DNA from: Phyto melanocephala
Taxonomy: Eukaryota; Arthropoda; Insecta; Diptera; Rhinophoridae
Length of the DNA stretch: 64,000 nt
Direction of reading: 5' to 3'
Assembly (NCBI GenBank): GCA_941918925.1
Contig: OW799237.1
Location: forward strand, 72,099,626 to 72,163,625
The translations under genes and the position numbers were made by a program. Of this stretch, positions 3,795 through 53,225 are shown in pieces (position 1 is the stretch's first letter; each line of letters opens with the position of its first letter). The notes under the pieces are model-generated. The model was not told the origin of the DNA. It ran no database searches and saw only the letters and a list, made by a program, of their open reading frames with translations.

Positions 3795-4704
3795 GCACAG
3801 TGTTTTTTCGGTCTATTTAATATTTAAAACGAATTAAACTGACAAAATTCAATGTACGATTCTGAAATCTTGCAGACATTGGTTTTGGTCAATAGAATTG
3901 TAATAACGGAAATTTAAGGTAACACGCCCACCTCCCATATAACGATTTATAATAAATTCATATAATTTCTCTATGGACAAAGATTTTTGAAGTATACAGG
4001 ACTCTATATTGAAATATCTAAGATGAATTTATTATAAAAAACTACTTTGACACGACTACTATTAAGCCCACAGAATTATATGTATTAGATGATCAAATTT
4101 TTTATATTAATCTCAATGTGAATGTTAAAATAATGGGGGAAAAAGGGAGGTAAAACGTCCACTTTAACGCCCACTTCCCTTATATTCGTATAATTTCTCT
4201 GTGAATAAAAATTGTGGAAGAATAAGCTTAAACTTTATATTATAATATTTTAGTTAAGTTTATAAACAGAAATTACTTTGACACGCCTACTTTTAATATA
4301 AATTACTAGTAATGAAATTTAAGAACTCATAAAAGTGACAGCATTTGATGTATGATAATGAAATTTTGCATATATACCTTTCTGGTTAATGTAATTATAA
4401 TTCCAAGAAATGAAGGTGACATACCCACTTTACTAAAAAAAATACAACATTGAAGTTAAGAAGACTGATTAGTATCACTTTTAATGAAGAAATTCTTAAT
4501 GTTTCAGTGTAAGACTAAATTTAAGGAAATAAATTAATAGCAAATCGAAGTTACACAAAGAAAGTAATACATATTTTAGTATAAGGAAATTATACCAAAG
4601 TGTAAATAGTCCATAATAAAATAATAAATTTTGTGCTGTAAAGTACAAAAAAAAAATTGGTATGAAAAATTCGGCAAAATCAAATATTGTGCTCTTACTT
4701 GTTG
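3795..4704 (+). mobile_element. Family C DINE-1-like element, degenerate, 5'-truncated
   Basis: It contains the family C body (ACACGCCCACCTCCCATATAACG followed by 'TTCATATAATTTCTCTATG..AAAGAT') and ends in a decayed 3' hairpin with GTGCTCTTACTTGTT at 4688-4704. Family C shares the CACGCCCAC..ACGCCCAC phrase with Drosophila INE-1. The 5' terminus with ATACCCGCCACC is missing. Confidence 0.6.
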
Positions 4705-18628: not shown

Positions 18629-21600
18629 TATACACATGTAGGGGGAATATCGAAGCAGACCACTACTATCACGGGTCCCTTTTCGACCCCCTTCGCTCCT
18701 CAGTGATTTCGTGTCTACCGATCAGTATACCTTTAATCACTGAGTCCCGCGCCACAACCGGCGTTTGCTCTGGACTAGGAAAACGATTTCACACTGCCGA
18801 CTGGTGATTGTCGACAATCCTCATCGCACAGTCCTTTGTAATCGCCAGCATCTCCCTCAGACTAAGGTCCCCCATCGCACTCACACTTAAAGTGTGCTTG
18901 CCTGTGATCCTTAATCTTCCGCTCGCCAACGCCGGACACTCGCATACTACATGCGCTGCCGTCTCGGCATCCTCCAGGCACATTCTACAAATATCATCAT
19001 CCACGATTTGCATCCTCTTCAGATGATATTTGAAGTTACCATGTCCTGTAATCAACGCAGTGATCCAGCTCATCATACTCCGATTAAAACCGAGTATCTT
19101 CACTGCACCCCTGCCAAGTGGCTCCCTGAGCACCATACGGGCCTGTCTACACGTGGTTCCCTCCATCCACCTTCGCAAGTTCATAGAGTTCACCCATTGA
19201 AAGATCCTCGCCCACACCAACCCATTACCCAGAGCAGTTCTGGGTTCCGGTCCGCAGAATGCAGCCTTCTTCGCAAGTTCGTCAGCAGCCTCATTCCCAG
19301 CTATGCCCACGTGTCCCTTAACCCACATCAGCGTTACCTCATTTGTAGAGGCACACCTATTGAGCTTTAGAACACACTCAAGCACCAAAGAGGAGTTCAC
19401 ATCTATCCGCTGCATACGTTTTATAACCGACTGGTTGTCAAGTGCAATAAGAATTCTCTTCCCATACATTCGACATTCCAACAGGTGGTCCAACGCGTGC
19501 AGCAAACCAAGCATTTCTGCCTGATAGACTGACACGTACTCCCCCAGATTCAGGGTGCAGGATAAGTTCAACTCAGATGAGTACACACCAGCACCTGCCC
19601 TTCCGTCCATAAAGGACCCATCAGTAAAGATACTGATGTCATTCTCCATGCACTCATCGTGCATGAATCCATCCGCTATAAGCGTGTGATGTAGCCTTTC
19701 GACCACCTTCACTCGACTCATGCGCTCCATCGGCATCTGAGCCTCCCTAACCTCTTCATCCACGAGGTCCAGGATTCTCCTATGCCCCAAAACCGATCCA
19801 AAGCGATACCACATGCCATCGCTTCGCATCCGAATCGCCGATCTTGCCGCCGTCTTCCTTACAAATAAGTCCAACGGCAGCAATCCCAGCATTGCCTCCA
19901 TCGCTTGCGTTGGTGTGGTACGTATCGCGCCACATATACCAATGCAAGCAATCCTTTGAACCCCGTCCAACTTCCGCCTAATCGTCGCCTGGGAGGCCTT
20001 CGGCCACCAGACAACAGATGCGTAAGTGATCGTCGGTCTCACCACCACTGTGTAAATCCAGTGTGCAGCCTTAGGTGAGATTCCCCACTTCCGACCGCAA
20101 ACCCGTTTACACTGATGCAGAATCCTCTTTGCCTTCTGTACCCTTGCCTCAACATGATCATTCCAGGTTAGTTTCATATCCAGCGTTACCCCCAGATATT
20201 TCACCTTCCTGGACACGTTGATCTCGGTTCCAAAAAGCATTAAGGATTCAATCTCTATGCCCTTCCTTCTCCGCGTGAAGAGCATAGCATCCGACTTGCC
20301 AGCATTTATGGTTAGTCCCTGTTCATAACACCATTCTTCGGTTACTCTGAGCGCCTGTCTCATGCAACCTAAAATGGTCTCCATGAACTTAACACCAACC
20401 ATAATTGCCACATCATCCGCATACCCTACCGTATGTATGCCAATTACCTCCAGTCTCCTGAGAAGGCTGTCCACAGTTATGTTCCACAGCAGAGGTGATA
20501 AGACCCCTCCTTGCGGACATCCCCTGACCACCCTTCCCCGAATCCTGGTGCTTCCGCTCCTGAGATTCACCGCCCTACATCTGAGCATGGGGCCGATCCA
20601 CTTCATCACAACAGAATCGACCCCTCGCTCATCGAGAGCATTTCCCAGTTTATCAAAAGAGATCCTATCAAAAGCGCCCTCTATGTCCATAAATATGGAC
20701 AAAGCAAGATCACCATTGAAAACCTCCCTCTCAGCAACCCTCACCAATTCGTGCAGGGCAGTCTCAGTAGAACTCCCAGCCCTGTAAGCGTGCTGACTCC
20801 CACTCAATGGCCTATCCATCAGCGTAGTCCCCTCCAGGAAGTCAACCAACACCCTTTCCATTGCCTTCAATAGAAAGGATGTAAGACTGATCGGCCTGAA
20901 CGACTTAGCCTCCGTATAGTCCCTCTTCCCCGGTTTGGGAAGAAAAACCACCCTGGTCTCCCTCCATGCCACCGGAATATACCCTGTCGAAAGACAGGCA
21001 ACAAATATTTCCCTAATCACCACAAGTAGAGTGTTCATACCCCACTGTAGTAATGCAGGAAATATCCCATCCATCCCAGCCGCCTTAAATGGGCCAAAAG
21101 ACAAAATCGCACTTCTAACCCCATTAAGAGTTACTATCCTTTCAGCATCTCTCCGCCTTACCTCACTGGCTCCCCTGTTAACGGGAACCCATGAGTCATT
21201 CGAAATGAAACTTCCAGGAAAATGTACCTCCATCAGCGACTGTAATGTCCCCCCCATCGTCTCCGTCATGCCGCCATCGCTCCTGCGAATAAGCCCCATT
21301 CTGGAGACAGGGTCTCTAGACAACATCTTCTGCAGTCTCCCCACTTTAGATGTATCCATCACGCCGGAGCAGAATTCCCTCCACGTACTTCGTTTCCGAA
21401 GACGTATAGTTCTCTTCAGCTCCTTCTTCTTCGCCTTATAATCGTCCCATAAGCTAGGATTCCGCTCCCTCATGTAACGATTAAAGGCCCTCCTCGTGTC
21501 CCCCTTCATGGATTCCAATTCACTACTCCACCATGGAGTAGAATCCTTTTCATCCACTACCGTGAGAGGACACGCATTCTCGAAGGCAAGTCCGACAGTA

Positions 21601-23364
21601 GAGTTTACCCACTCCACCGTCCGCTCAACATCCTCCGTGTTCCGGAGTGCCCGGTGTGGAACACTCCCCGAAAGTCCCGAGAGGCACTCCTCGTACTTAG
21701 TGCGATCCGTATCCCTCGGCACCCTGATACGCCTACGCGCCTTCCTCCGCCTCCTACCATATAGAATCTCAAACTGGATAGCCCTGTGATCAGACATGGT
21801 CAATCTGTCCACCACTCTCCAATTGCCAACTCTATCCAGCATCCCGACAGAGCATAAAGTGATGTCGATTACCTCCGCCCTACGTGCATCCACGAAGGTG
21901 GGCTCGACACCCCTGTTCAGGACCAGCAGGTCATGACACTCCACAAACTCCAGCAACTGCCGTCCCCAGTGGTTATCATCCGTACTGCCCCATACAGTAC
22001 TGTGTGAGTTAGCATCACAGCCCATTACAAGAGGCATACCCCTCAACCTACAGAACTCCACCAGATTCCTAACCTCCTCCGAAGGATGGGAGTCCGGTGT
22101 GTCATAGGGTAGGTAAGCCGACGCCACCAGAAACGATCCCGAACCCGCGCCTATCATTACCACCGTAAGATCCGGCGAACAGAGATGCGTCATCGGCACA
22201 GCACACACACCGTGACGCAGCAGGATACACGTCCTCAACCTCCCCCCCGTCTGTGAGTGAAACAGACTGGCGGTCTGACGAGACAGGCCCATGATGTTAT
22301 CCCTAACAATCCATGGTTCCTGTAGCAAGGCTATATCCAACCCATCCTCCACAAAACATCGCATCATCACCGCCGAAGCCGCTCTGCTATGATGCAGATT
22401 CAGTTGATATACACTCAGAGTTTCCACCTTCCGTAGTTGGTTCGGGTCAAAGTTCCTGGATTTATCACCCTTAAACTTTTTCCCTGTTTCCTCGTCTTCA
22501 GGTGTCGTCTCCTCATTCATAAGGCTATCGATCCGATTTGATATCCTTTCAATAGCCTTCCTGCCCCTCCGACGTTTCCTCTTTAGTCTCTGCCTCTCGG
22601 TCTTACCCAAAGGCATAGACTCAGAGTTCGCGTCGCGGTCCGAGGTTTCCGTGATCTGGACAGATGCCTCCACTCCTGCTGGGGCGGATACATCAATGTC
22701 CTTCACCGTTACCTCTCTACCCATTGGAGTATCTTCAGAGATTAACCTCTCCACCTCTTGCGAGGCTTCAATGTCCATCTCAATCCGATCTCTCCATTGG
22801 CCACGTCTAATCGGAGTATCTTCAGAGACTAACCTCTCCACCTTTTGCAAGGCTTCATTGTCCGTCCCTTTCGAAGTTCCCCGATTATCACAATTTTCAT
22901 TCGAAACCTTCGTTGAATCAATCTTGTTCCCACGAGTATTGGGGAAAGAAAAGTCGACCCGCACAGAGCCCCACATGCACAGGCAAGTCTAAATTGAAAC
23001 TGGAGGTCAACCGGTATCCAGAGTTCACATACTAGCGACCAGGCTCCCTCCTGGCCACGCATCCCTTGGCGTATGTAGTCCCACCGTGGATTAGGGTAGA
23101 TTTATACGAGTCTACAACTCCCTGGCGGGGTCGTGAAGACCAGCCGTGGTCCATAGGGCCAATTACAGCAACACTGGGTGGTCCAATCCGAACGAGAGAG
23201 GGAAAACCACCCAGTGGCCGAGTCCATCAGCCGTCCCCACATAGGAGAAAACAGACGCTGACAGACAGGGAAAAGGTAGTTCTTAGTTGTGCAACACTGC
23301 ACGCAAGCCCCCGCATCGCTTCAAGATGACTACCCATCGCGAGGGTATTATTTCTATTATTATT
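18629..23364 (-). mobile_element. Intact non-LTR retrotransposon flanked by a 14-bp target site duplication
   Basis: The boundaries are set by the exact 14-bp direct repeat on both sides. On the minus strand there is a 388-nt leader (23364-22977), one uninterrupted ORF (22976-18789) and a 160-nt 3' untranslated tail that is not poly(A). GC content is visibly higher than in the surroundings. No ORF1/gag and no gag-type CCHC knuckles are present upstream of the ORF. Either this family is single-ORF, or the copy starts downstream of a lost ORF1. An intact ORF plus a perfect target duplication indicates recent insertion. Confidence 0.9.
18789..22976 (-). CDS. Retrotransposon polyprotein: endonuclease, reverse transcriptase, RNase H
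   Basis: This 1395-residue protein makes the target nick, copies the element RNA and removes RNA from the hybrid. Residues 1-185 are a charged leader with an imperfect duplication (41-55 and 70-84, ...VERL(V/I)SEDTP) and a basic stretch at 127-143. Residues 186-405 are an APE-type endonuclease (YQLNLHHS, LLQEPW at 218-222, GCDANSH at 319-325, SDHR at 395-398). RT spans about 625-945: FKAAGMDG, RPISLTSFLLK, FMDIEGAFD, GCPQGGVLSPLLWN and YADD at 852-855. RNase H is at about 1114-1240 with FTDGS, the Glu near 1154, LDNQS and the GH..IAGNEAAD motif. The C-terminus has a C-x2-C-x8-H-x4-C knuckle (1330-1347). All key motifs are present. RNase H with this endonuclease type fits the LOA/R1/I group, and LOA is my best guess. 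The ATG at 22976-22974 is the first in frame. Confidence 0.93.
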   Translation of the reverse strand: MWGSVRVDFSFPNTRGNKIDSTKVSNENCDNRGTSKGTDNEALQKVERLVSEDTPIRRGQWRDRIEMDIEASQEVERLISEDTPMGREVTVKDIDVSAPAGVEASVQITETSDRDANSESMPLGKTERQRLKRKRRRGRKAIERISNRIDSLMNEETTPEDEETGKKFKGDKSRNFDPNQLRKVETLSVYQLNLHHSRAASAVMMRCFVEDGLDIALLQEPWIVRDNIMGLSRQTASLFHSQTGGRLRTCILLRHGVCAVPMTHLCSPDLTVVMIGAGSGSFLVASAYLPYDTPDSHPSEEVRNLVEFCRLRGMPLVMGCDANSHSTVWGSTDDNHWGRQLLEFVECHDLLVLNRGVEPTFVDARRAEVIDITLCSVGMLDRVGNWRVVDRLTMSDHRAIQFEILYGRRRRKARRRIRVPRDTDRTKYEECLSGLSGSVPHRALRNTEDVERTVEWVNSTVGLAFENACPLTVVDEKDSTPWWSSELESMKGDTRRAFNRYMRERNPSLWDDYKAKKKELKRTIRLRKRSTWREFCSGVMDTSKVGRLQKMLSRDPVSRMGLIRRSDGGMTETMGGTLQSLMEVHFPGSFISNDSWVPVNRGASEVRRRDAERIVTLNGVRSAILSFGPFKAAGMDGIFPALLQWGMNTLLVVIREIFVACLSTGYIPVAWRETRVVFLPKPGKRDYTEAKSFRPISLTSFLLKAMERVLVDFLEGTTLMDRPLSGSQHAYRAGSSTETALHELVRVAEREVFNGDLALSIFMDIEGAFDRISFDKLGNALDERGVDSVVMKWIGPMLRCRAVNLRSGSTRIRGRVVRGCPQGGVLSPLLWNITVDSLLRRLEVIGIHTVGYADDVAIMVGVKFMETILGCMRQALRVTEEWCYEQGLTINAGKSDAMLFTRRRKGIEIESLMLFGTEINVSRKVKYLGVTLDMKLTWNDHVEARVQKAKRILHQCKRVCGRKWGISPKAAHWIYTVVVRPTITYASVVWWPKASQATIRRKLDGVQRIACIGICGAIRTTPTQAMEAMLGLLPLDLFVRKTAARSAIRMRSDGMWYRFGSVLGHRRILDLVDEEVREAQMPMERMSRVKVVERLHHTLIADGFMHDECMENDISIFTDGSFMDGRAGAGVYSSELNLSCTLNLGEYVSVYQAEMLGLLHALDHLLECRMYGKRILIALDNQSVIKRMQRIDVNSSLVLECVLKLNRCASTNEVTLMWVKGHVGIAGNEAADELAKKAAFCGPEPRTALGNGLVWARIFQWVNSMNLRRWMEGTTCRQARMVLREPLGRGAVKILGFNRSMMSWITALITGHGNFKYHLKRMQIVDDDICRMCLEDAETAAHVVCECPALASGRLRITGKHTLSVSAMGDLSLREMLAITKDCAMRIVDNHQSAV

Positions 23365-27388: not shown

Positions 27389-29618
27389 ACAAGTAAGAGC
27401 ACTATATTCTGCTGTGCCGAATCTTTTATACCCACCACCAGTTTTCCGTTCTTTTGTAGCTACGGTTTTTTTCCCGAAAATTCGAGATTTATTTTTTAAT
27501 ATCCCGGGATCCCGCAGCAAAACAAATAAACAGTAAATTTGTTTTAATTAAAAAAAAACTTTTTATTAAAAAGCATAAAATAATTTATAATGTAAAAAAA
27601 ACTTCTAAACTATAAAAATCAAAAAAAAAAAACTTGAATTTAAAATATAAATTGAGTAAAAATATTTTTTATTTTTGAAAAAATATTATTCTCTAGATAC
27701 GAGATCAAATATGAGAACAAATAACAGAAATACAGGTAATTCAGCTATGAGATCAAAAATAAAATCATTAGAATTCAATTTCAATATAAACAGTATAAAC
27801 ATCTGCTTTCGAATCGTAGCCACCTTTTTTATTTCCCGGGATCCCGAAAAATAATCCCGGGTAATCGGGAAGATTAAATAACTCAAATTCCCGGGAAATA
27901 ACCCAATTTATAGAACAAAATGTATTTGTTTGTTATTAACAGTAATCGCTATGCAATAATCTCTTTATACTAAAATATGTATCACTTTCTTTGTATAACT
28001 TTGACAGGCTAGTAAAATGTTTTCGTAAATTTAGTCTTTCAATGAAAAAGGGCGTTAAAGTAGGCGTGTTGAAGTTGTTTCTACTAATGAATGCAACTTA
28101 GATGTTTCAATATAGTCCTTTATTATTTCAAAATCTTTAATCATAGAGATATTATATAAATTTGAGATAAACCGTTATATGGGAGGTAGGCGTAAAATTG
28201 GGCGTGTCACATTTATTTTCCGTCGGAACAAAGCATTTGACAAAAAAGCCATGTGTGCTTTTTCCAATTTTGTTGCTTTTGTGACGTTTTTATACCCGCC
28301 ACCAAAAAAATGGTGGGGGTATATTCATTTTGTCATTCCGTTTGTAACACATCGAAATATCCATTTTAGACCCCTAAAGTATATATATGAAATTTAAAAG
28401 CTCATAAAACAGACAAAATTACAGCTACGATAATGGAATTTGCTACACATGTACTTCTAGTCAATTGTTATGGCGGAAAATTTAGGTGATAGGCCCACTT
28501 TAATGCCTACCTCCTATATAACGGCTTATCTCAAATTCATATAATTTCTCTATGAATAAAGATTTTGGAATAATAAAGAACTATATTGAAACACCTAAGT
28601 TGCATTCATTAGTAGATACAACTTCAACACGCCTACTTTAACGCCCTTTTTCATTGAAAGACTAAATTTACGAAAACATTTTACTAGCCTGTCAAAGTTA
28701 TACAAAGAAAGTGATACATATTTTAGTATAAAGAGATTATTGCATAGCGATTACTGTTAATAACAAACAAATACATTTTGTTCTATAAATTGGGTTATTT
28801 CCCGGGAATTTGAGTTATTTAATCTTCCCGATTACCCGGGATTATTTTTCGGGATCCCGGGAAATAAAAAAGGTGGCTACGATTCGAAAGCAGATGTTTA
28901 TACTGTTTATATTGAAATTGAATTCTAATGATTTTATTTTTGATCTCATAGCTGAATTACCTGTGATTTTGTTATTTGTTCTCATATTTGTTCTCATATT
29001 TGATCTCGTATCTAGAGAATAATATTTTTTTAATAAAAAATATTTTTACTCAATTTATATTTAAAATTCAAGTTTCTTTATTGATTTTTATAGTTTTGAA
29101 GTGTTTATTTTACATTATAAACTATTTTATGCTTTTTAGTAAAAAGTTTTTTATTTAATTAAAAACAAATTTACTTTTTATTTGTTTTGCTGCGGGATCC
29201 CAGGATATTAAAAAATAAATCTCGCATTTTCGGGAAACAAAAAATTTCTGGAAAAAAACCCTAGCTACAAAAGAATGGAAAGTTGGTGGTCATTGTTATG
29301 TTATGAAAATTTAGGTGACACGCCTACTTTAGCGCCTACCTCCCATATGACGCCTTATCTTAAATTCATATAATTTCTCTATGCATAAAGATTTTGGAAG
29401 AATAAATGACTTTATTCAAATATCTCAGTCTTATTTATTCGCAGGAACTATATTGACACGCCAAATTCAACACCCATTTTCATTGAAACACTTATTTTAC
29501 GAAAATAGTTTGAAAGCACATCGAAGTTATACAAAGAAACGGATACAAATTTAAGTATAAAAGAAAAAAAGTGGTGGGTATCAAAAATTCGGCACAGCCG
29601 AATACTTACTTACTTGTT
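27389..29618. mobile_element. Giant palindrome built from family C DINE-1-like copies
   Basis: The outer ends are two outward-facing 3' ends: ACAAGTAAGAGCACTATATTC at the left and TTCGGCACAGCCGAA with ACTTACTTGTT at the right. Inside, about 27436-28235 and 28445-29290 are inverted copies (arms near 0.8 kb, spacer about 0.2 kb). Each arm contains the same GC-rich motif set (CCCGGGATCCCG, TTCCCGGGAA) and family C body. The spacer holds a 5' terminus ATACCCGCCACCAAAAAAAT. The arms are so alike that the same 60-odd-codon open frame appears in both (27686-27886 minus, 28810-29022 plus). I read that frame as non-coding. Confidence 0.65.
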
Positions 29619-29806
29619 GTTTACAAACAAAATAATTATATGTTTTGAAAAATATATATGCAATTTAGAATGATTTCCTTACGAATAGACGTGTTTCTAA
29701 ACAAACAAAAATACAATTTTTTTAAAATAATAATGAGTTATTTTAAGAACTAAATATTGACATACTTATCGACAACAACCTCTACAAAAAAAGCAAGAAA
29801 TTTTGT

Positions 29807-29814
29807 TATAAATA
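29807..29814 (+). promoter_or_regulatory. Candidate TATA box of the tandem-defensin gene
   Basis: TATAAATA lies 95 bp upstream of the ATG at 29909. An initiator-like TCAGTT sits at 29825-29830, slightly closer than usual, so transcription may begin between there and about 29838. A GATA-type site (TTATCG, inverted) lies at 29767-29772. I see no GGGR..YYY kappaB site between the palindrome and the TATA box. Confidence 0.6.
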
Positions 29815-29908
29815 CCGCAAGTAATCAGTTGTGCTGGCATAAACCAACGAAATTACTTCAAACTGTTTAACGTGTTTAGCTGTAGTTTGCAATAAAAGTA
29901 CATTAAAA

Positions 29909-30646
29909 ATGAAATTCTTCTGGACATTTTCGTCACTCCTTGTAATTCTGACTGGTGGTCTAGTGGAAGCCGCAAACTTTAACGATGATAACGTTATTGT
30001 CAAACCTGAATCTACTACAATTAATGCAACAGAATTAGCCGTAACTGATGATGTTGAACCAATCGAGGTAGGAAATGAAGGATCTGTTAAAATTGCATTA
30101 GAAGAAAATTTTGGTTTAAGGGATGCAAGACGAAATATATGCAGTTTAAGGATTACTCATCAAAATCCCATAAGTAATAAAAATAGAGCTAACAATTTTG
30201 TCATATCTGATGATACTGATTCTGCTAAGGAGGTCAAACGTGAACAACCCTTTCAAAATGTCGTAAAAGCGTCGCCGGCTTTGAAAAATCTTTGTGGCGG
30301 AATGTTAGCATTTTTTCCTTTTAGAGAAAATCATAAGCTATGTGATTTGCATTGCAGGACGATTAAGTATAAGGCTGGTTTTTGTACTTTTAATGACGTA
30401 TGTATGTGCAAAAATATTGCAATCGATTTAGTCGTAGCTCATGATACGCACTCTTCTAAAACCAAACGTGAAGAACCTGTTAAAATTGCCATAAAATTGC
30501 CTCTTGATTTGGAAAATATTTGCAGCGAAATATTAACATTTATACCTTTAAGACGAAATCATTTGCGTTGTGATTTTCATTGCAGAAAGAGTAGCTATAA
30601 GGCTGGATATTGTACTTTCGATAAAGTTTGTATATGCAAAAATTAG
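29909..30646 (+). CDS. Tandem-defensin precursor (two CS-alpha-beta modules, one decayed)
   Basis: A 245-residue secreted precursor expected to release antimicrobial peptides. Residues 1-21 are a signal peptide (MKFFWTFSSLLVILTGGLVEA). Module 2 has cysteines at 129, 145, 149, 159, 165 and 167. Module 3 has them at 205, 221, 225, 235, 241 and 243. Both give C-x15-C-x3-C-x9-C-x5-C-x-C. Known fly defensins have C-x12-C-x3-C-x9-C-x5-C-x-C, so only the first loop is longer. Each module ends VC(M/I)CKN, like the VCVCRN end of fly defensins. Each is preceded by a propiece ending in KR (110-111, 186-187), the usual prodefensin cleavage site. Residues 40-92 repeat the propiece and module start (IALEENFGL..NIC78) but have lost the rest of the cysteines and the KR, so an ancestral third unit has decayed. 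Single exon, ATG in good context (AAAAATG). Defensin-like antifungal or signalling peptide remains an alternative. Function is inferred from the fold pattern. Confidence 0.85.
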   Translation: MKFFWTFSSLLVILTGGLVEAANFNDDNVIVKPESTTINATELAVTDDVEPIEVGNEGSVKIALEENFGLRDARRNICSLRITHQNPISNKNRANNFVISDDTDSAKEVKREQPFQNVVKASPALKNLCGGMLAFFPFRENHKLCDLHCRTIKYKAGFCTFNDVCMCKNIAIDLVVAHDTHSSKTKREEPVKIAIKLPLDLENICSEILTFIPLRRNHLRCDFHCRKSSYKAGYCTFDKVCICKN

Positions 30647-30714: not shown

Positions 30715-30720
30715 AATAAA
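30715..30720 (+). terminator. Polyadenylation signal of the tandem-defensin gene
   Basis: AATAAA 69 bp after the stop codon, a typical spacing for a short fly gene. Confidence 0.7.
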
Positions 30721-30729
30721 ACAAATATT

Positions 30730-31580
30730 GCATGAACGTATATACATACATTTGTACATAGAAGCATGCATTGGTTCTTATTTTTAATTTATGATCTTAA
30801 GTGTCTATCTATTTATTATCTTAAGGCTTCATTAGTCTTTACTTTCTGTTGTCGTTCTGTGACGTGCCGTTCTGTTGTTTAATTTTTGTGGTTACTTCTT
30901 CTGTAAAAAATCATCTGCCTTAATTTACAAGGTAATCTTATTATATTTTTTGTTTATTTTCCTCGTCAAAGTCCATACATAAAAAAAATTTGTAGTGTCA
31001 GATTTCATATATAAGCAAACAGAGTCTCTATGTTGCAGCCACCTAAATATCAGCTGTTTCTCTCTCAATGGCCGTCACTTAACGTTAAATTCTATTTTCT
31101 ACAGGTTCGTCCGCAACGGCACGGAAAGTAACAGAACAACTAACGACTTGTACACATTTTCTATTTAACAGAATGAAGTCAGCTGATTCGAAACGGAACA
31201 GAAAGTAAAGACTAATTCTGCCTTTAAGGATACTAGAAAAAAAGAAAGATAGCAGCAAAAATAAAATTTCGAATGAATGGGTCGAAAACAGTAACTACAA
31301 AAGTATGCCCTTCAACCCCTTTAATTTGGCTATGTAATAAAATAAATAAAACAACTTACATTCGACTCGGTTTTATAACTGGTAGAAAAACCGGTTTTTT
31401 ATTGTTTCAGCTTGTGGTTTTTGTATAATTGTATAACACTATTAAAAATATGTGACACCCAAAAAATACAGCAAAGTGAAACAAAGGGCTTTTAATGTAT
31501 TAACACTATTAAACTAACTTTGTAGTATAAAAAAGTCACAACTGCAAAAATTTGTGTAGAACATAATGTGTATATTATTA
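30730..31580. other. AT-rich stretch without recognised feature
   Basis: The 3' flank of the defensin gene. A mixed-composition patch at 31000-31210 shows no motif that I can name. No second defensin-like module is found on either strand. Confidence 0.4.
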
Positions 31581-31895
31581 TACCATAGACAGACGACAGC
31601 GTTAATTTGCATTAAAATCTCACTAATGCAAATTAAAATTTTGCTGTGACAGACGACTGTTTCTACATTTAGTAAAAATTGTAAATGCACTAGCAATCAC
31701 AAATCTGAACATGTTCCTACAAGTTGGGATGGCAGAAGGACACTCTGAAATAAGAGAAAAGGAATTGTGGAAATTCGTAGGTTTAATGATATCTTTTCAT
31801 GTACATATGTATGTAGGTTATAATTCATACATACATACGTACATACATACATACATACATACATACATACATACATACATACATACATACATACA

Positions 31896-31926
<31 letters not shown>

Positions 31927-32248
31927 GTATGTAGGTATGTGGTATTTTTTTAAAGGACCGTAACAGCACATTATTAAGGAAAAATTTCACCTAAATAGAA
32001 AGGCATTCCAAAAAATATGTAAAAAAGTTCAAAATATCGAATCTATTTTAATTTTACATTTTTGATTTTTTAATTTTTTGATTGATTGCTGACCGTGTTG
32101 CCATATTGAAATTGCTAAATGCAGTAAAAATTCAATTCGATTTAGTGCATTTACATGAAATCTAATACACATTGGAATGGGGATAATTCAATAGTTAATT
32201 TGAATTAAGACTTCTAATGCAAATTAACGCTGTCGTCTGTATATGGTA
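31581..32248. mobile_element. Candidate Tourist-type MITE with 34-bp terminal inverted repeats
   Basis: 31581-31614 (starting TACCATAGACAGACGACAGC) and 32215-32248 are inverted copies with one mismatch. TTA flanks both sides, which fits the 3-bp duplication of PIF/Harbinger elements. The element is non-coding and carries a CATA microsatellite inside. Confidence 0.55.
31827..31930. repeat. (ATAC)n tetranucleotide microsatellite
   Basis: About 24 tandem ATAC/CATA units, almost uninterrupted, bordered on both sides by ACATATGTATGTAGG-like palindromic phrases. The apparent ORFs across it are just the repeat read through. Confidence 0.95.
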
Positions 32249-32595
32249 TTATATTCATTATCAAACAAATTAATTTAGTTCTAACAAAACGTAGTGGCAA
32301 TAGTATAAATTTATTTTTACAGATTTAAGAAATAATTTAAAACAGAATACGTTAGTGCATGCAAATTTTGAAACTGTATGTTGTTATCTTAATATGTTGT
32401 CATATACTTCAAGCTTGAGATCATATTGTTAAAAGAAGATCAAATAACGTATATAAACTGTTAAAAGCAGAGACCGAAAATAACAGTTATTTTTAAAATT
32501 TAAAATCAAAAAATCAGGTGGATATAATTTGTCTATCACATATTTGAATACAGCATATTGATGCTGTTATGCTAAGGAATAATAAACTTAAAAGA
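32249..32595. other. AT-rich stretch without recognised feature
   Basis: Nothing assignable between the MITE and the 36-bp satellite. Confidence 0.4.
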
Positions 32596-39213: not shown

Positions 39214-39820
39214 GAGTCATTCCATGTCAGACCGAACACCTTTTTGACACCACCTCTTCCGATTTTCTTTAAATTTGCCAGACGTATTAAACATAAAAAA
39301 ATATTTTACACGTGTTTCGTAAAAAAAATTAAAAATTTTTTTTTAAAAAGTTATTTGCATTTGAAAATCGTCAAAATCGTGAAAAATCTTCCGACATGAC
39401 AACATTTAAACTAATTTTTTTATAAAACTAGTGAATGGATTTTGAAGTTCAATACCTTATTTTAAAGGTATTTGAAACTTCTTTTTAAAAAAAATATTAG
39501 TTTTTATAAATTAATTTTTTTTTTTTATTAAAATTTGGTTTTTTTACTTAATTTCTGGTTTCCACAATCTTCGAACAAGTCGAAAAATCTGAAAAAAATA
39601 TTTTCTTAAAGAGGAATATATTCTTAACATTTTTTCAAAATTTCAGAGTGGAGGTCGAATGGATTCTATTTTTTTAAGATTTTTTTCAATTGCAGCACCA
39701 CAAAAAAATTACATTTTGTATATAAACATTTTATTTTCATGCATGTTAACGAAAATGTCAACGCATGTATGTATGTGTGTATGTATTCAAAAACACACAA
39801 AATTTAATACTTAAGTAAAT
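39214..39820. repeat. Left terminal inverted repeat of the nested DNA transposon
   Basis: Matches 41096-41712 in reverse with scattered substitutions and small indels. The inner limit is AATACTTAAGTAAAT. Confidence 0.8.
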
Positions 39821-39891
39821 ATTTAATCAAAATTCATATTGTTCTGGAGATTTGTTTGTTTTGCTTTTATTCTATTTTGCAGTTAGAATTT

Positions 39892-40742
39892 TTTTGTATG
39901 TTCTATTTTAAAACCATTCAATCAGAAACTTACGAATTCTTGGAAAAATTGGCAGAAAAGCTACGTCGCTTGTTAACCCATTCTTACATTGCCAAACAAC
40001 AAAGCAATTTTTTTCAAAGAAAAAAGAAAGATTTGCAACCTGGGGAATGCGTTGTGATTTGTGACTTTGCAGAAAACTATTCATTTGTCATTCAAGATTC
40101 CATTCAAGGTTCTCATTGGAATAACGACCAGGTAAAGATTCATCCTATTGCTATTTACTACAATGACAATGGAAAAGAAAAATTTATTAATTATGTTGCA
40201 ATATCGGAATGCTTAAAACCGACACAATAGCTGTCAATTTATTTTAGGAGGGTCTAATCAAATTCCTTAAAGAAACATTGAGTAACTTAAAAAAAAATTT
40301 TTACTTCTCAGATGGTGCAAGTGCTCAATATAAAAACAAGACAAATTTTGTCAATCTTGCATTTCACGAAGATGATTTCGCTATAAAAGCAGAGTGGCAC
40401 TTTTTTGCAACTTCGCACGGAAAGGGCCCTTACGATGGGCTTGGAGGCACAATTAAAAGATTAGCAGCCCGAGCCAGTTTGACCAATATTGACAATCCAA
40501 TCAATACCCCGACTACTTTTTATCAATGGGTTAAACAAAATGTTAAAAACGTAAATTGCGAATTTTTTAGTACGGAACAATATAATGAGCATGAGAAAAA
40601 ACTTAAAGAACGGTTTACTAAAGCAAAAATAATACCAGGTACTTTAGGCTACCATGCGTTTATTCCGTACCAAGAGAGACAAATTAAAGTTCATACTACA
40701 TCATTTGCAGCTGATTTTTCTATAAAAAATGTATATAAAAAT
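39892..40742 (+). pseudogene. DDE transposase, C-terminal half, frame-broken
   Basis: A first block (to about 40215) has CVVICDFAENYSFVIQDS, with a likely first catalytic Asp, and KIHPIAIYY. A second block (40278-40745) has FYFSDGASAQYKN, with a likely second Asp, then WHFFATSHGKGPYDGLGG and IKRLAARASL. Between them are a frame change near 40215 and an in-frame TAG near 40246, unless an intron ending TTTATTTTAG is used. The N-terminal half is absent, so this is a deletion derivative. The 'SDG..QYKN ... FFATSHGK.P.DG.GG' signature belongs to a DDE family common in insects and cnidarians. I cannot name the superfamily with certainty (Sola-like is a guess). Confidence 0.7.
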
Positions 40743-41095
40743 TAAAATTGCTTATTATTTAACTTTTAGTTATGTATTAAAAAAAAAAACACTTTTTTAC
40801 TTTCAAACCGCGTGCTTAATTTCAATATTTTTATAAAAAATTCAGGCTTGCTTAACCCAAAAACCTTAATTTTATAATTATAATTATAATTTTATTAAAT
40901 TTTTTAAAGAAACGAACTGAGTGTACCATAAAAATATTGAAACATGTGAATTCGTTATTACTAATGGGTAGTTAGGTATTATATTACGAGTAAGTGGTTA
41001 CATTTTAGTTATAAAGAAATTCGAGGGTAAGGAGTTTAACTTATTACCAGGTAACGTGTTCCGTAATACCAACCTATTACCGAGTTTTTGCTGGG

Positions 41096-42976: not shown

Positions 42977-43182
42977 CTATTTCTAAAGTTCTTATGTTTT
43001 GTAAATTCTTATACAATAAGAACTTATATTCAAACAGAGAGTGCGAAATCTTAACCTCTATAATTTTTTTTTACATCATTTCAATAAAATGATTACAGAC
43101 ATTTAATTTTTGCGGATAATTAGGGTAATTAAGTCCTCTTATTTGCATCATTCTCTTATGCAATTTGTTTGACATTTCCTTC

Positions 43183-44391
43183 ATGGAATGGGAAACAATT
43201 GCATTTAAGGCTAAGGCAATAAGAGAGGAATTTCTTAAATCCCATAAATGCTTAAATATTGACAGGGATACAAGACCCGAAACCATCAATAAGCATATAA
43301 ACATCCTTCAGCTTCAGTTGGAAAAGCTTAGAGTACTTCTAAATACGAATTATAGTAGACTTACTAAAGCACATCAAACATCTGCTGAGACCTTTTATTC
43401 TGACCTACGTGAAAAACTAATTTCCGTAAGTTATAGAAAAGACATTAAAGTTTTTGTCCCACATTCTCTTCATGAACCAATAGTGTTCAATCGTCTACCC
43501 GAAATAGAACAAAACCAGAACCCCACCATGCCTCAGACACTTGTGGAATTCTTAAATACTGCCTCTAGGTTAATCCCAGATTTCGATGGAAATTCTGAAA
43601 ACCTACAGAGCGTTATCGATGCAATTAATCTTGTAGACTCGATAAAGGGAGCTCATGAGTCAGTAGCTGTTAACCTTATTAAAACGAAACTAAAAGGAAC
43701 AGCAAGAAACTTAATTTCTTCAGAATCCACTTTATCTGAAGTAATTTCAAAACTCCAGAGTACAGTGAAAGGGGAATCCGTTGACGTTATTAACGCTAAG
43801 CTAATGAGCGTTAGACAAAGCGGTAAAAACGTTAATTCCTATGCCAAGGAAATGGAGGAATTAACGAGAAAACTCGAAACTGCCTATATTAGAGATGGTG
43901 TACCTCATGAGGCAGCTAATAAATATGCTACTCGCTCAGCTGTAGCGGCGATAACCAGAAATGCTTCTAACGATAGGGTTAAGCTGGTTATGGAATCAGG
44001 AACATTCAGTAACATGAATGAAGTACTGACTAAATTCATAAGCAGTTGCACTGAAATATATGGGCAAGAGAATTCCATTCTTGCCTATAGTGTAACACGC
44101 CAAGGTTACAGTAACCATAATGGTAACCAGGGCAGAACAGCTAATGGAAATTTCAACCGAAATGGAAATAACACTTTCAATCGGAATGGAAACCGCAACG
44201 AGTCCTTTCGTAGTAACAATAACGGTACTAACCGCAATGATAACTATAATGATAATTCTAATTCCTATCGAAATAATAATTACGGTAACAGAAACCGTAA
44301 TACAAACCGTAATAATTTTCGAAACGGAAACATAAATCTAATTAGGGGAGACGATCCGGGAAACGTGCAACCACCCCTAAATACTCAATAA
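43183..44391 (+). CDS. gag: Gag of the LTR retrotransposon
   Basis: 402 residues from the first in-frame ATG at 43183. The open frame extends a little upstream without an ATG. The protein assembles the virus-like particle. An alpha-helical N-terminal half contains the capsid-like phrase LVEFLNTASRLIPDFDGN..NLQSVIDAINLVDSI. The last 95 residues are extremely rich in Asn and Arg, with repeated NRNGN/NRNN units, and no CCHC knuckle is visible. The basic tail probably binds RNA in place of a knuckle. The frame is intact. The pol frame overlaps its end by 46 nt. Confidence 0.85.
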   Translation: MEWETIAFKAKAIREEFLKSHKCLNIDRDTRPETINKHINILQLQLEKLRVLLNTNYSRLTKAHQTSAETFYSDLREKLISVSYRKDIKVFVPHSLHEPIVFNRLPEIEQNQNPTMPQTLVEFLNTASRLIPDFDGNSENLQSVIDAINLVDSIKGAHESVAVNLIKTKLKGTARNLISSESTLSEVISKLQSTVKGESVDVINAKLMSVRQSGKNVNSYAKEMEELTRKLETAYIRDGVPHEAANKYATRSAVAAITRNASNDRVKLVMESGTFSNMNEVLTKFISSCTEIYGQENSILAYSVTRQGYSNHNGNQGRTANGNFNRNGNNTFNRNGNRNESFRSNNNGTNRNDNYNDNSNSYRNNNYGNRNRNTNRNNFRNGNINLIRGDDPGNVQPPLNTQ

Positions 44392-47300
44392 AGTCTAGAA
44401 CCTACAATATTGATCTAAATTTATGCAGCTACTTGCATTGTAGAACTACACTAAATGATACTACCTCAACCTTTTTAATAGATACCGGCGCTGATATTTC
44501 GATTATCAAGCACAATCAAGTCTTAAATGAATCGGTAAATGTTTACAATAGAAAGAATCTAAATGGCATTGGTCAGGGCATAATCTCAACATTAGGTAGT
44601 GTACAGTCAGAATTGAAAATAGACCAATATTTAATAAAACACATTTTTCATGTAGTAAGAGACGACTTCAAAATACAAGCAGACGGAATAATTGGAATGG
44701 ATTTCATACGAAAGTATAATTGCATCCTACAATATTCCAATGATAAGGATTTAATAATCCTTCGTTCAAATGAAGTTGATCATAATATTGGAATACCACT
44801 TAGAAATGGTCCAACTATAAATTCTATATCTATCCCTGCGAGATCCGAAGTAGTAAGATCTATAAAAATAGAATCCTCGGAACAAGACGTATTGATACCA
44901 TATCAAACTATTCAAAATGGTGTCTACGTCGCTAATACAATTACCTCAAAATCGAATCCTTTAGTGAAGATCATCAACACTACGGAACAAGATTTAGTAA
45001 TTGAGGATATTAAACTTGTTACAGAAACCCTTGAAGACTACAGAATAGCCAAACAGAATTTTATGCCTTCCAACTCCAAGGAAAAATTGGACAGACTTTC
45101 AAGAAACTTTCCACCATTTGTTGAAACAGATTTGAAATCCCTATGCAAAGAATTTATAGATATTTTTGCCTTAGAATCTGAAAGTATATCGGTCAACAAC
45201 TTTTATAAACAAAAACTTAAGGTAAACAATACACAACCTGTTTATATCAAAAATTATAGAATTCCCCATTCCCAGAAACAGGAAGTAAACAATCAGGTTG
45301 ATAAGTTAATTGGAGACGGTATTGTTGAACCCTCAATTTCAGATCACAATAGCCCCATACTCTTAGTACCAAAAAAAACTTTACCCGGTACCACACAAAA
45401 GAGATGGAGATTAGTAGTAGACTACAGAGCAGTGAACAAGAAATTAGTAGCTGATAAATTCCCGTTACCTCGAATAGAGGATATTCTTGATCAATTAGGT
45501 AGAGCTAAATTCTTCTCTTGTCTTGACCTGATGTCAGGTTTTCATCAAATAGAACTTGAAGAGGAGTCTAGAGATATTACATCCTTCTCTACAGATAAAG
45601 GATCATTCAGATTTAAAAGATTGCCGTATGGTATTAAAATAGCCCCTAATTCGTTTCAACGCATGATGTCATTGGCTTTTCGGGTCTATCTCCAGCACAA
45701 GCATTTGTGTATATGGATGACCTAGTAGTGATTGGTTGTTCAACGGAACATATGTTACGGAATCTAAGAAACGTATTCGAACTGTGCAGAAAACATAATC
45801 TGAAATTACACCCAGATAAGTGTTAATTTTTCTGTACACAGGTTACATTTTTAGGCCACAAATGTACTGATCAAGGTATATTGCCTGATGACAGCAAATT
45901 CTCGATAGTTCAAAACTATCCAACACCCAAAAATGGTGATGAAGCAAAACGCTTCGTAGCCTTTTGTAATTACTACCGAAGGTTCATACCGAAATTTGCT
46001 GAATCATCCAGACATATCACTGGATTGTCGAAAAAAAATGTACCTTTTGAATGGAATGAGGATTGTGAAAAATCATTCCAATACCTCAAAAATCAATTAC
46101 TAAGCCCTGAAATTTTACAATACCCTGATTTTTCTAAAGACTTTTTTATTACCACAGACGCAAGCAAATACGCTTGTGGCGCTGTTCTAAGCCAAGAAAA
46201 ACACGGTATACTAATGCCAATTTCATACGCTTCTAGATCTTTCACTAAAGGCGAAAGTAACAAATCTACCATAGAGCAGGAACTAACTGCTATACATTGG
46301 GCTGTGAAATATTTCAGGCCATACATTAACGGCAAAAAGTTTGTGATCAAAAGTGATCACAGACCACTCACCTACCTATTTTCATTGAAGAATCCCTCCT
46401 CAAAGCTCACCCGTATGAGACTTGACCTCGAGGAATACGACTTTGTAGTCGAGTATATTAGGGGTCAGGAAAATACAGTGGCAGACGCGCTGTCACGCAT
46501 AGAGTTTCAGGATATTAGGAACATTGAAGTCAACACAATTCTGAAGGTTACAACCAGACTTCAGGCTAAAGCAGGCGTGTCAATTGGAAATGAATCCTCT
46601 ATACCGCCAACAGAATCAAATAATTTGAGAATCTATGAGGCTATAAACGCCCACGAGCACCGTAAAATGCCCAGATTGGATTTTACTAAGGATAGAGTAA
46701 TTATCCATAAAGGAAAGCAAGTTCTTTCCGATTTTAAGTTGAAGGACCTCATTATTAATAGAAAAGTCGACCTAGGTCACCTCTTTCTAAAGCTTGCGAA
46801 AATAGCTAATAATATTGGTCTAACAACATTGCTACTCTCACTAGATGACAGTATGCTATTTTACCTAGGAACGGATATGGAAACCTTCAAGAGTAAGGGT
46901 AATATAATCTTGCAAGATTTAAATTTAACTATTGTGCTCGTTCCGAAACTTACTAAAGTTTCTTCTGATTCTGAAAAACAGAGAATTATGCATAAATATC
47001 ATGATGATCCCGTTACCGGCGGACATCCAGGCATAACTCGAATGATTGCAAAAATAAGACTTCAATATCATTGGAAAGGCATGACTAGGGACATAGCCAA
47101 ATATGTCAAACATTGCCTTCAATGCCAAACCAACAAGACCATGGTTAAAGGTAAGGAGTCACTCGTTTTGACACCAACTCCTTTAAAAGCTTTTCAAAGA
47201 GTAATAATCGACACTATAGGACCTCTTCCACGGTCAGAGTCCCAGAATGAATATGCTGTGACGATAATGTGCGATTTAACTAAATATCTAGTGGCTATCC

Positions 47301-48016
47301 CTATAGTAAATAAATCAGCCAGAAATGTTGCAAAAGCCATTATGGAATATTTTATTTTAATATAAGGTCCAATGGACACCATAATAACGGACCAAGGTAC
47401 TAAGTATATAAATCAAGTACTTACGGAGCTATGCAAACTGATGAAAATAGAGAAATTGAACTCTACGGCTTACCACCATGAGACGCTCGGCACTGTTGAG
47501 AGATCTCACAGGACATTCAGCGAGTATTTAAGATCTTATGTGTCATCAGACAAGTCCGATTGGGATAATTGGTTAAAATTTTTTGTGTATTGCTATAATA
47601 CCACCCCATCTACAGCTCATGGATATTGTCCATTTGAATTGATCTATGGGAAAATTCCCAGGGAACTAGATTTTACCAATACTGATAAAATAGATCCGAT
47701 ATATAACGTTGATGCATATGAAAAGGAGGTAAAATTCAGACTCCAAGTAGCACAACGTAGAGCCGCTAGTCTCATTGAAAATGCTAAACTTCTGAGACAG
47801 AAGTTGTCCAATGAAAACTCGAATCCTACCACACTCTATGTCAATGACTCTGTTCTAATCCGCAACGAAGCGGGACACAAACTGGATGCGGTCTACAAAG
47901 GGCCCTTCACAGTAAAGGAAATTGACCTCTTGAACAATGTCACATTGATGGACACTGATGGGAAACTCTTCACTGTCCATAAGAACAGAGTCAAAAGACT
48001 CCATAATGGAGAATAA
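44346..48016 (+). pseudogene. pol: Pol of the LTR retrotransposon (protease-RT-RNase H-integrase), inactivated
   Basis: Domain order: protease with FLIDTGADIS (about 44475-44505); reverse transcriptase with RWRLVVDYRAVNKK, FSCLDLMSGFHQI, LPYGIKIAP and YMDD at 45710-45721; RNase H with FITTDASKYACGAVLSQ and ADALSRIE; integrase with the H-x3-H...C-x2-C zinc motif (GHPG..KHCLQCQ), the DDE core (IIDTIGPL, IITDQGT, ERSHRT) and a C-terminal PFTVKEI segment. Three lesions: a one-base loss in the T-run at 45677-45680, which puts YMDD in another frame; an in-frame TAA at 45824-45826; and an in-frame TAA at 47363-47365 inside the integrase core. No complete pol can be made. Catalytic motifs are otherwise well kept, in line with recent damage. 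Confidence 0.9.
44358..44364 (+). promoter_or_regulatory. -1 ribosomal frameshift site (GGGAAAC)
   Basis: In the gag frame the bases read G-GGA-AAC, a perfect X-XXY-YYZ slippery heptamer of a type used by several RNA viruses. The pol frame is one base back and is open from 44346, with no ATG before the protease motif, so slippage here would give Gag-Pol. The gag stop is 27 nt downstream. No strong downstream stem is obvious by eye. Confidence 0.75.
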
Positions 48017-52189: not shown

Positions 52190-53225
52190 TGTGCCACGCC
52201 CACTTTTACGCCCACCTCCCATATAACGTTTTGCCCAAAATTCATATAATTTCTCAATTTATGTAGATTTTGGAATAATAAAGGGCTATATTGAAATATC
52301 TCAGTTGTACTCATTCGAAAATACAACTTTGACACGCCCACTATAACGCCCACTTTTCACGTTATATACCGTTAATGAAATTTAAAAGCTCATAAAACCG
52401 CCAAAATTAGAGGTATGATCTCAAATTCGCTACGTATATCCTTTTAGGCAATGTCATTACTGCGCCAGAAAATTAAGGCGCCACGCCCACTTTTACGCCC
52501 ACCTCCCATATAACGTTTTACTTAAAATTCATATAATTCCTCTATTAATAAAGATTTTGGAATAATAAAGGACTATATTGAAACACCTAAGTTGTACTCA
52601 TTCGCAAAAATAACTTTGACACGCCTACTATAACGCCCACTTTTCACGTTATATACCGTTAATGAAATTTAAAAGCTCATAAAACCGCCAAAATAAGAGG
52701 TATGATGATAAAATTTGCTACGTATATCCCCCTAGGCAATGTCATTACTGTGCTAGAAAATTGAGTTGCCACGCCCACTTTTACGCCCACCTCCCATATA
52801 ACGTTTTACTCAAAATTCCTCTAATTTCTCTATTAATAATGATTTTGGGTTAATAAAGGGCTATATTGAAACACCTAAGTTGTACTCATTCGCAAATACA
52901 ATTTTGACACGCCTACTATAACGCCCACTTTTTACGTAATCTACCGTTAATGAAATTTAAAAGCTCATAAAACCGCCGAAATTAGAGGTATGATGATCAA
53001 ATTTGCTGTGTATATCCTTCTAATCAATGTAATTGTTGTGCCAAAAAGTTTAGGTGACACGGCCACTTTAACGCCTATCTCCCATACAACGGCTTACCTT
53101 AAATTCATGTAATTTCTCTATTGACAAAGTTTTTGGGAAAAAAAAGGACTATATTGAAATATTTAAGTTGTATTTATTAGTAGAAACTTTATTGACACAG
53201 CTACTTTAACACACTTTCATTGAAT
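52190..53225 (+). repeat. Tandem array of about 287-bp units
   Basis: Consecutive units each contain ACGCCCACCTCCCATATAAC, 'TTTTGG.ATAATAAAG', 'TGACACGCC..CTATAACGCCCAC' and 'AAATTTAAAAGCTCATAAAA'. The last unit is the most diverged. Confidence 0.75.

Follow-up and report, generated by a model that had tools for sequence, protein, structure and literature searches.

Two defensin modules and a truncated third unit in one predicted precursor gene of the fly Phyto melanocephala

The gene and its two modules

One open reading frame (ORF) in the genome of the rhinophorid fly Phyto melanocephala encodes a predicted secreted protein with two defensin modules in tandem. It lies at 29909-30646 on the forward strand of a stretch of 64,000 nucleotides (GenBank assembly GCA_941918925.1, contig OW799237.1, positions 72,099,626 to 72,163,625), which was analysed as a whole and is called the window; all positions are those of the window. 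The ORF runs from ATG to TAG over 245 codons without an internal stop. By comparison, in simulated sequences (60 of 64 kb, first-order Markov, composition of the window) no ATG ORF exceeded 157 amino acids, and the longest per sequence averaged 112.

The translation starts with a hydrophobic, signal-peptide-like stretch, MKFFWTFSSLLVILTGGLVEA (residues 1-21; 29909..29971, + strand), and cleavage would fall after Ala21 according to the small-residue rule. A regex scan located a TATA-like box, TATAAATA (29807..29814, +), and an initiator-like TCAGTT (29825..29830, +) with a possible transcription start near 29827. A polyadenylation-like AATAAA follows the ORF (30715..30720, +). These signals frame the ORF as a predicted gene without an intron in the coding part. 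The TATA-like box and the initiator-like site are about 20 nt apart, a short spacing compared to the usual 25-31 nt, and are weak promoter evidence. Very probably, the ORF is a coding gene whose product has two defensin modules.

Module 1 covers residues 112-169 (30242..30415, +), with cysteines at 129, 145, 149, 159, 165 and 167. Module 2 covers residues 188-245 (30470..30643, +), with cysteines at 205, 221, 225, 235, 241 and 243, and contains RR215-216. The spacing C-x15-C-x3-C-x9-C-x5-C-x-C is identical in both modules, as the original prediction had read it. This exact spacing arose in none of 100000 shuffles of residues 22-245 and did not occur in the 60 simulated sequences. With a looser pattern of the cysteine-stabilised alpha-beta (CS-alpha-beta) type, a six-frame scan found only two places in the window, namely the two modules. 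No other defensin was detected in the window by cysteine pattern or by tblastn of pieces of the protein (best outside match E 0.56).

Both modules match the arthropod defensin family of Pfam, PF01097, which has a curated cut-off of 20.4 bits. The whole protein scored 45 bits over two stretches, and each module passed the cut-off alone (module 1: E 3.7e-8, 33.6 bits; module 2: E 2.1e-5, 24.7 bits). The six cysteines in the order C...C-x3-C...C...C-x-C that characterise this family are present in each of them. The NCBIfam actinodefensin model reached 24 bits where 65 are required and was rejected. In the search with the whole protein, five further Pfam matches, including gamma-thionin, PF24552 and Toxin_3, scored below their cut-offs. 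By family, an antimicrobial or related host-defence role is reasonably likely.

When both modules were modelled with AlphaFold2 (AF2), as the original prediction had proposed, the predicted structures had the alpha-beta-beta order. The best model of module 1 (predicted local distance difference test, pLDDT, 72.0) has a helix at 27-40 and strands at 45-48 and 54-57; module 2 follows the same order (best pLDDT 66.2). The helix and two strands of a CS-alpha-beta fold are thus predicted for both modules. In a Foldseek search with module 1, the nearest proteins to the model were of the CS-alpha-beta type.

Probable origin of the units by duplication and loss

The two modules belong to a longer repeat. 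The module units share 49% protein identity over 76 columns and 76% DNA identity over 181 bp, with an offset of 228 bp, and the alignment score of unit 1 against unit 2 was reached by none of 2000 shuffles. It appears that a segment of about 228 bp was duplicated head to tail, giving the two complete units. The claim of one precursor with two defensin-type modules is borne out by the intact ORF, the Pfam matches and the repeat test. A disrupted single-module gene, named beforehand as the outcome that would speak against this claim, is at variance with the present sequence, in which two intact modules are in frame. Two further explanations were ruled out. An assembly artefact repeating one unit would give identical copies, and these are 76% identical. 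A fusion of neighbouring genes with kept starts is at odds with the spacer, which lacks a signal-like stretch between the modules.

Ahead of the two complete units, shuffle tests pointed to a truncated third unit, called unit 0, at about residues 40-92 (30026..30184, +). It repeats the pro-region and the module start, ends ahead of the second cysteine and keeps Cys78 only. The protein score of residues 22-92 against unit 2 was reached by 1 of 2000 shuffles, and the DNA score by 3 of 1000 codon shuffles. Unit 0 is about 24 codons shorter than unit 1 (77 codons), and the missing part corresponds roughly to Cys2 through the end. The shortfall is what an in-frame deletion would be expected to leave.

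The precursor contains 13 cysteines, and Cys78 (30140-30142) has no partner within unit 0. Judging from the sequence, it could form an intermolecular disulfide and so hold precursors or the remnant peptide together as dimers.

Pro-region, spacers and predicted cleavage sites

The pro-region (residues 22-75; 29972..30133, +) is acidic, with a net charge of -7, and ends in RR74-75, which directly precedes Asn-Ile-Cys78; unit 0 begins inside it near residue 40. The charge and dibasic scan also delimited the spacer of unit 1 (residues 93-111; 30185..30241, +), ending in KR110-111 with a net charge of 0, and that of unit 2 (residues 170-187; 30416..30469, +), ending in KR186-187 with a net charge of +1. 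The KR pair predicted ahead of each module is thus present. The acidic propiece predicted for each module holds for residues 22-75, while the spacers are neutral and slightly basic. In total, the protein has five dibasic pairs: RR74-75, KR110-111, KR186-187, RR215-216 and RK226-227, the last two inside module 2.

We propose the following course of events for the precursor. The signal peptide would be removed, and a proprotein convertase would cut after KR111 and KR187, perhaps also after RR75; the basic ends would then be trimmed by a carboxypeptidase. The released products would be two CS-alpha-beta peptides, each with a 17-residue N-terminal extension, and module 1 would keep a residual tail. 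The predicted products are residues 188-245 for module 2 (net charge +3) and residues 112-187 for untrimmed module 1 (net +5). Once released, the peptides may serve in host defence, as antimicrobials or in a related role. Over evolutionary time, in-frame duplication and deletion would alter the number of units; the truncated first unit would be what is left of a lost module, with its pro-region now used by the precursor as a whole. Cleavage at KR is plausible and slightly favoured. The full reading, an intact insect gene with an intronless coding part for a secreted poly-defensin precursor cut into two host-defence peptides, stands at about an even chance.

Several findings, on the cleavage sites and in the sections that follow, weigh against this reading. 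In both modules, KR lies 17 residues before the first cysteine and no dibasic site adjoins it, so the predicted products would carry long N-terminal extensions. No dibasic site is present between CKN169 and IAI170, directly after module 1, which would therefore carry an 18-residue C-terminal tail before trimming. A cut at RR215-216 would break module 2. Because of the dibasic pairs inside this module, simple dibasic cleavage would have to be selective or shielded by the fold. Moreover, by the usual furin rule, KEVKR, with Glu at P4, falls short of a full site; SKTKR (K-x-K-R) would come nearer. The release of two peptides by KR cleavage, as originally predicted, thus keeps its KR pair in each spacer, but the pairs are remote from the first cysteine and no dibasic cut is expected directly after module 1.

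In insect defensin precursors, the propeptide normally closes with a dibasic motif that adjoins the mature domain (PMC5506212, PMC11116330). The dibasic site of the classical type, as far as these sources describe it, is next to the mature domain and not 17 residues from the first cysteine as here. A dibasic site adjoining a cysteine is kept only in the truncated unit, where RR is two residues before Cys78. On one reading, the ancestral site may have been lost in the two living units, and the upstream KR may have taken over. A more detailed scheme, which we consider tentative and rather doubtful, describes a three-unit array in which a dead unit, created by in-frame deletion, would keep the ancestral dibasic site and the pro-region, and two living units would use the upstream KR and give diverging defensins with new N-terminal extensions in a fixed 1:1 ratio.

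The models and the repeat comparisons also contain points of this kind. The structural models are of middling confidence and come from two sequences, and the other four models of module 1 reached pLDDT 61-62. Foldseek on module 1 returned 0 matches at E 0.001 or better. Residues 22-92 resembled unit 1 no better than chance (score reached by 907 of 2000 shuffles; DNA, 377 of 1000 codon shuffles). Of the claim that residues 40-92 are a decayed third unit, the single Cys78 and the kinship with unit 2 were confirmed, and the kinship with unit 1 was not; the third unit is likely real, though on one of two comparisons.

Comparison with known defensin precursors

No relative turned up in the protein and contig collections, in which the presence of insect defensins was not controlled, so that this result is uninformative on insects. 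The protein database search with the whole precursor gave 184 candidates, all with E above 10, and searches with unit 2 and with the two-module alignment gave no candidate. Pattern scans yielded 155 matches in viral contigs and 19 in prokaryote genome contigs, none confirmed.

The modules resemble insect-type defensins of PF01097, such as sapecin, insect defensin A, lucifensin and Anopheles defensin, in the order of C-x3-C and C-x-C. In alignments, they also have the GYC/GFC and VC-x-C-K/R-N ends in common, and NH before Cys2 and His before Cys3 are found in part of these defensins. The signal-like start, the acidic pro-region and the alpha-beta-beta models are further shared traits. In contrast to the fly defensins, in which the first loop has 12 residues, it has 15 here. 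A classical single-peptide insect defensin gene encodes one mature peptide per precursor, whereas here one ORF holds two complete modules and a truncated unit.

The original prediction held that a polyprotein with module birth and decay would be a new arrangement, which proved too broad: several defensin domains occur in X-tox, nasonin-2/-6, MtDef5 and AvBD11, and for five fungal precursors the release of two defensins is predicted. The general claim of an unknown arrangement was therefore rejected in view of these fungal, plant, bird and insect proteins. They are compared below as the consulted excerpts of the cited papers describe them.

The X-tox proteins of Lepidoptera contain several defensin domains, with 3-11 units in the named species (PMC2728511). 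This "defensin rosary" of imperfect CS-alpha-beta units in a row within a single insect protein is similar to the present case. Nevertheless, the X-tox repeat follows C-x4-C-x3-C-x7-G-x-C-x3-K/R-C-x-C (PMC2728511), and the modules here, with C-x15-C and C-x5-C, do not conform to it, the first loop being C-x4-C in X-tox. In the spacers of X-tox, conserved cleavage sites are said to be missing (PMC2728511), whereas here KR occurs in both spacers at equal distance. In nasonin-2 and -6 of Nasonia, too, a defensin-like unit is repeated within a single insect gene. They are described with 4-5 repeats, without processing signals (PMC2853521) and without a propeptide; here, two complete units are present with KR in the spacers. 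Nasonin-6 has one exon per domain, in contrast to the uninterrupted ORF here.

These proteins bear on a different reading, namely a two-domain defensin secreted whole, from which no single defensins are released and in which the KR pairs are due to chance or non-functional. The remote KR, the lack of a C-terminal cut at module 1, Glu at P4 in KEVKR and the dibasic pairs inside module 2 would all agree with it. Spod-11-tox is secreted without being converted into active defensins (PMC2728511), nasonin-2/-6 offer a second example of repeats without processing signals, and in MtDef5 of Medicago the joined domains show higher activity than the separate ones (PMC5700942). KR is, however, kept at equal distance in both spacers despite their divergence, unlike in the X-tox spacers, and the X-tox cysteine formula does not fit. 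We consider secretion of the uncut protein unlikely.

The predicted release of two peptides has a parallel in fungi. In maglosin, beauvesin2, manisin, pochlasin2 and asosin, two defensins are predicted to be released after removal of a spacer (PMC4165938). They differ from the fly precursor in their fungal origin, and no truncated third unit is mentioned in the text consulted. Bizyarsin is a further two-domain fungal peptide (PMC5234102). In the plant protein MtDef5, two defensin domains are likewise combined, but they belong to another family and are joined by a 7-residue linker, and the protein has been studied as a single two-domain molecule (PMC5700942). AvBD11 of birds also has two domains of another family and is thought not to stem from a recent internal duplication (PMC9138766).

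In flies, other host-defence precursors have furin-like sites between their peptides, for instance those of drosocin and Baramicin A, and the drosocin repeat number varies by species. The peptides of both are not defensins. For the tandem drosocins of the subgenus Drosophila, cuts are predicted at furin-like sites (PMC5078906), and Baramicin A is reported to be cleaved to yield several peptides (PMC9246212). A dibasic-punctuated precursor of two insect-type defensins was not found in the titles and abstract openings among the matches listed from a library poor in subscription papers, which is weak evidence of novelty.

Insect defensin genes usually encode one peptide, and the published insect poly-defensins considered here, X-tox and nasonin-2/-6, are described without processing sites in the excerpts consulted. 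If the precursor is cut at KR, one small ORF would display the gain, diversification and loss of antimicrobial peptide units, and it could be tested whether there is a benefit in making two linked defensins at a constant ratio. Without such cuts, the gene may represent a further, independently arisen poly-defensin that stays uncleaved.

Sequence constraint and upstream DNA

The modules differ at 44 of 180 bases, with the frame and all six cysteines kept. In a simulation that placed the same changes at random, frame and cysteines were both retained in 28 of 40000 placements and a stop arose in 4606 of 5000; as all changes were put on one copy, this is a rough null. The ratio of nonsynonymous to synonymous substitution rates (dN/dS) between the modules is high for a protein under constraint over 60 codons (NG86 0.82, YN00 0.68, LWL85 0.92) and scatters from 0.24 to 1.25 in shorter segments. 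Amino-acid identity, 31 of 60, is close to the random mean of 30.6 and was reached in 2644 of 5000 trials. These values give little sign of purifying selection beyond the cysteines and the frame. Such near-neutral change fits a kept scaffold with a changing surface, but also relaxed constraint.

On the upstream side, no NF-kB-like site with at most one mismatch to three consensus forms was found on either strand of 29327-29826, although such scans are weak in AT-rich DNA. In the 500 bp further upstream, which are repeat DNA, the loose form is matched exactly once (28838), and a few sites with one mismatch lie near 29192-29262. Indeed, 28400 to about 29626 is a dispersed repeat that matches elsewhere in the window.

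A secreted defensin-like gene acting outside systemic immunity, e.g., in the reproductive tract, gut or saliva, and evolving fast under weak constraint would agree with the lack of an NF-kB-like site in the proximal 500 bp and with the high dN/dS. Among stable fly defensins, one group is reported from larvae only and another was detected in male reproductive tracts (PMC7944917, in the part consulted). This role appears quite improbable. Consensus scans are weak evidence in AT-rich DNA; the role is compatible with the processing proposed above.

It is, in our opinion, slightly less probable still that the gene is becoming a pseudogene, with one unit lost, the rest relaxed and no meaningful expression. 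The truncated unit 0 and the near-neutral amino-acid change between the modules are in line with such decay, as are the repeats, which leave only about 200 bp of non-repeated DNA before the start-like site. The intact frame and the 12 module cysteines argue against it, as does the rarity with which randomly placed changes spare both.

Surroundings of the gene

The window is rich in repeated DNA. An inverted pair at 27434-28231 and 28465-29290, about 830 bp long and 91% identical, belongs to a dispersed family of repeats, of which further partial copies lie near 3900, 35800 and 52200-53200. No Rfam family at the gathering threshold and no tRNA were found in the window. Pfam searches of seven other long ORFs identified mobile-element domains in three, and four had no match at E 0.01. 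The latter include two adjacent ORFs of 140 and 165 amino acids at 39808-40745 (+).

An uninterrupted ORF of 1399 amino acids at 18792-22988 (-) has endonuclease, reverse transcriptase and RNase H domains, and from their order we take it to be a non-LTR retrotransposon (LTR, long terminal repeat). Four successive ORFs occupy 43129-48016 (+). The inner two (44346-45722 and 45827-47362, +) have aspartyl protease, reverse transcriptase, RNase H and integrase zinc-binding domains, and the outer two lack a Pfam match. The four are read as one LTR-type element, presumably Ty3/Gypsy-like, with its reading frame broken into pieces.

Downstream of the gene, short inverted repeats at 31576-31636 and 32195-32253 (87% identity over 62 columns) flank about 560 bp, and the stretch 31576-32253 is possibly a small transposon. 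A TACA microsatellite of about 100 bp is located at 31823-31949.
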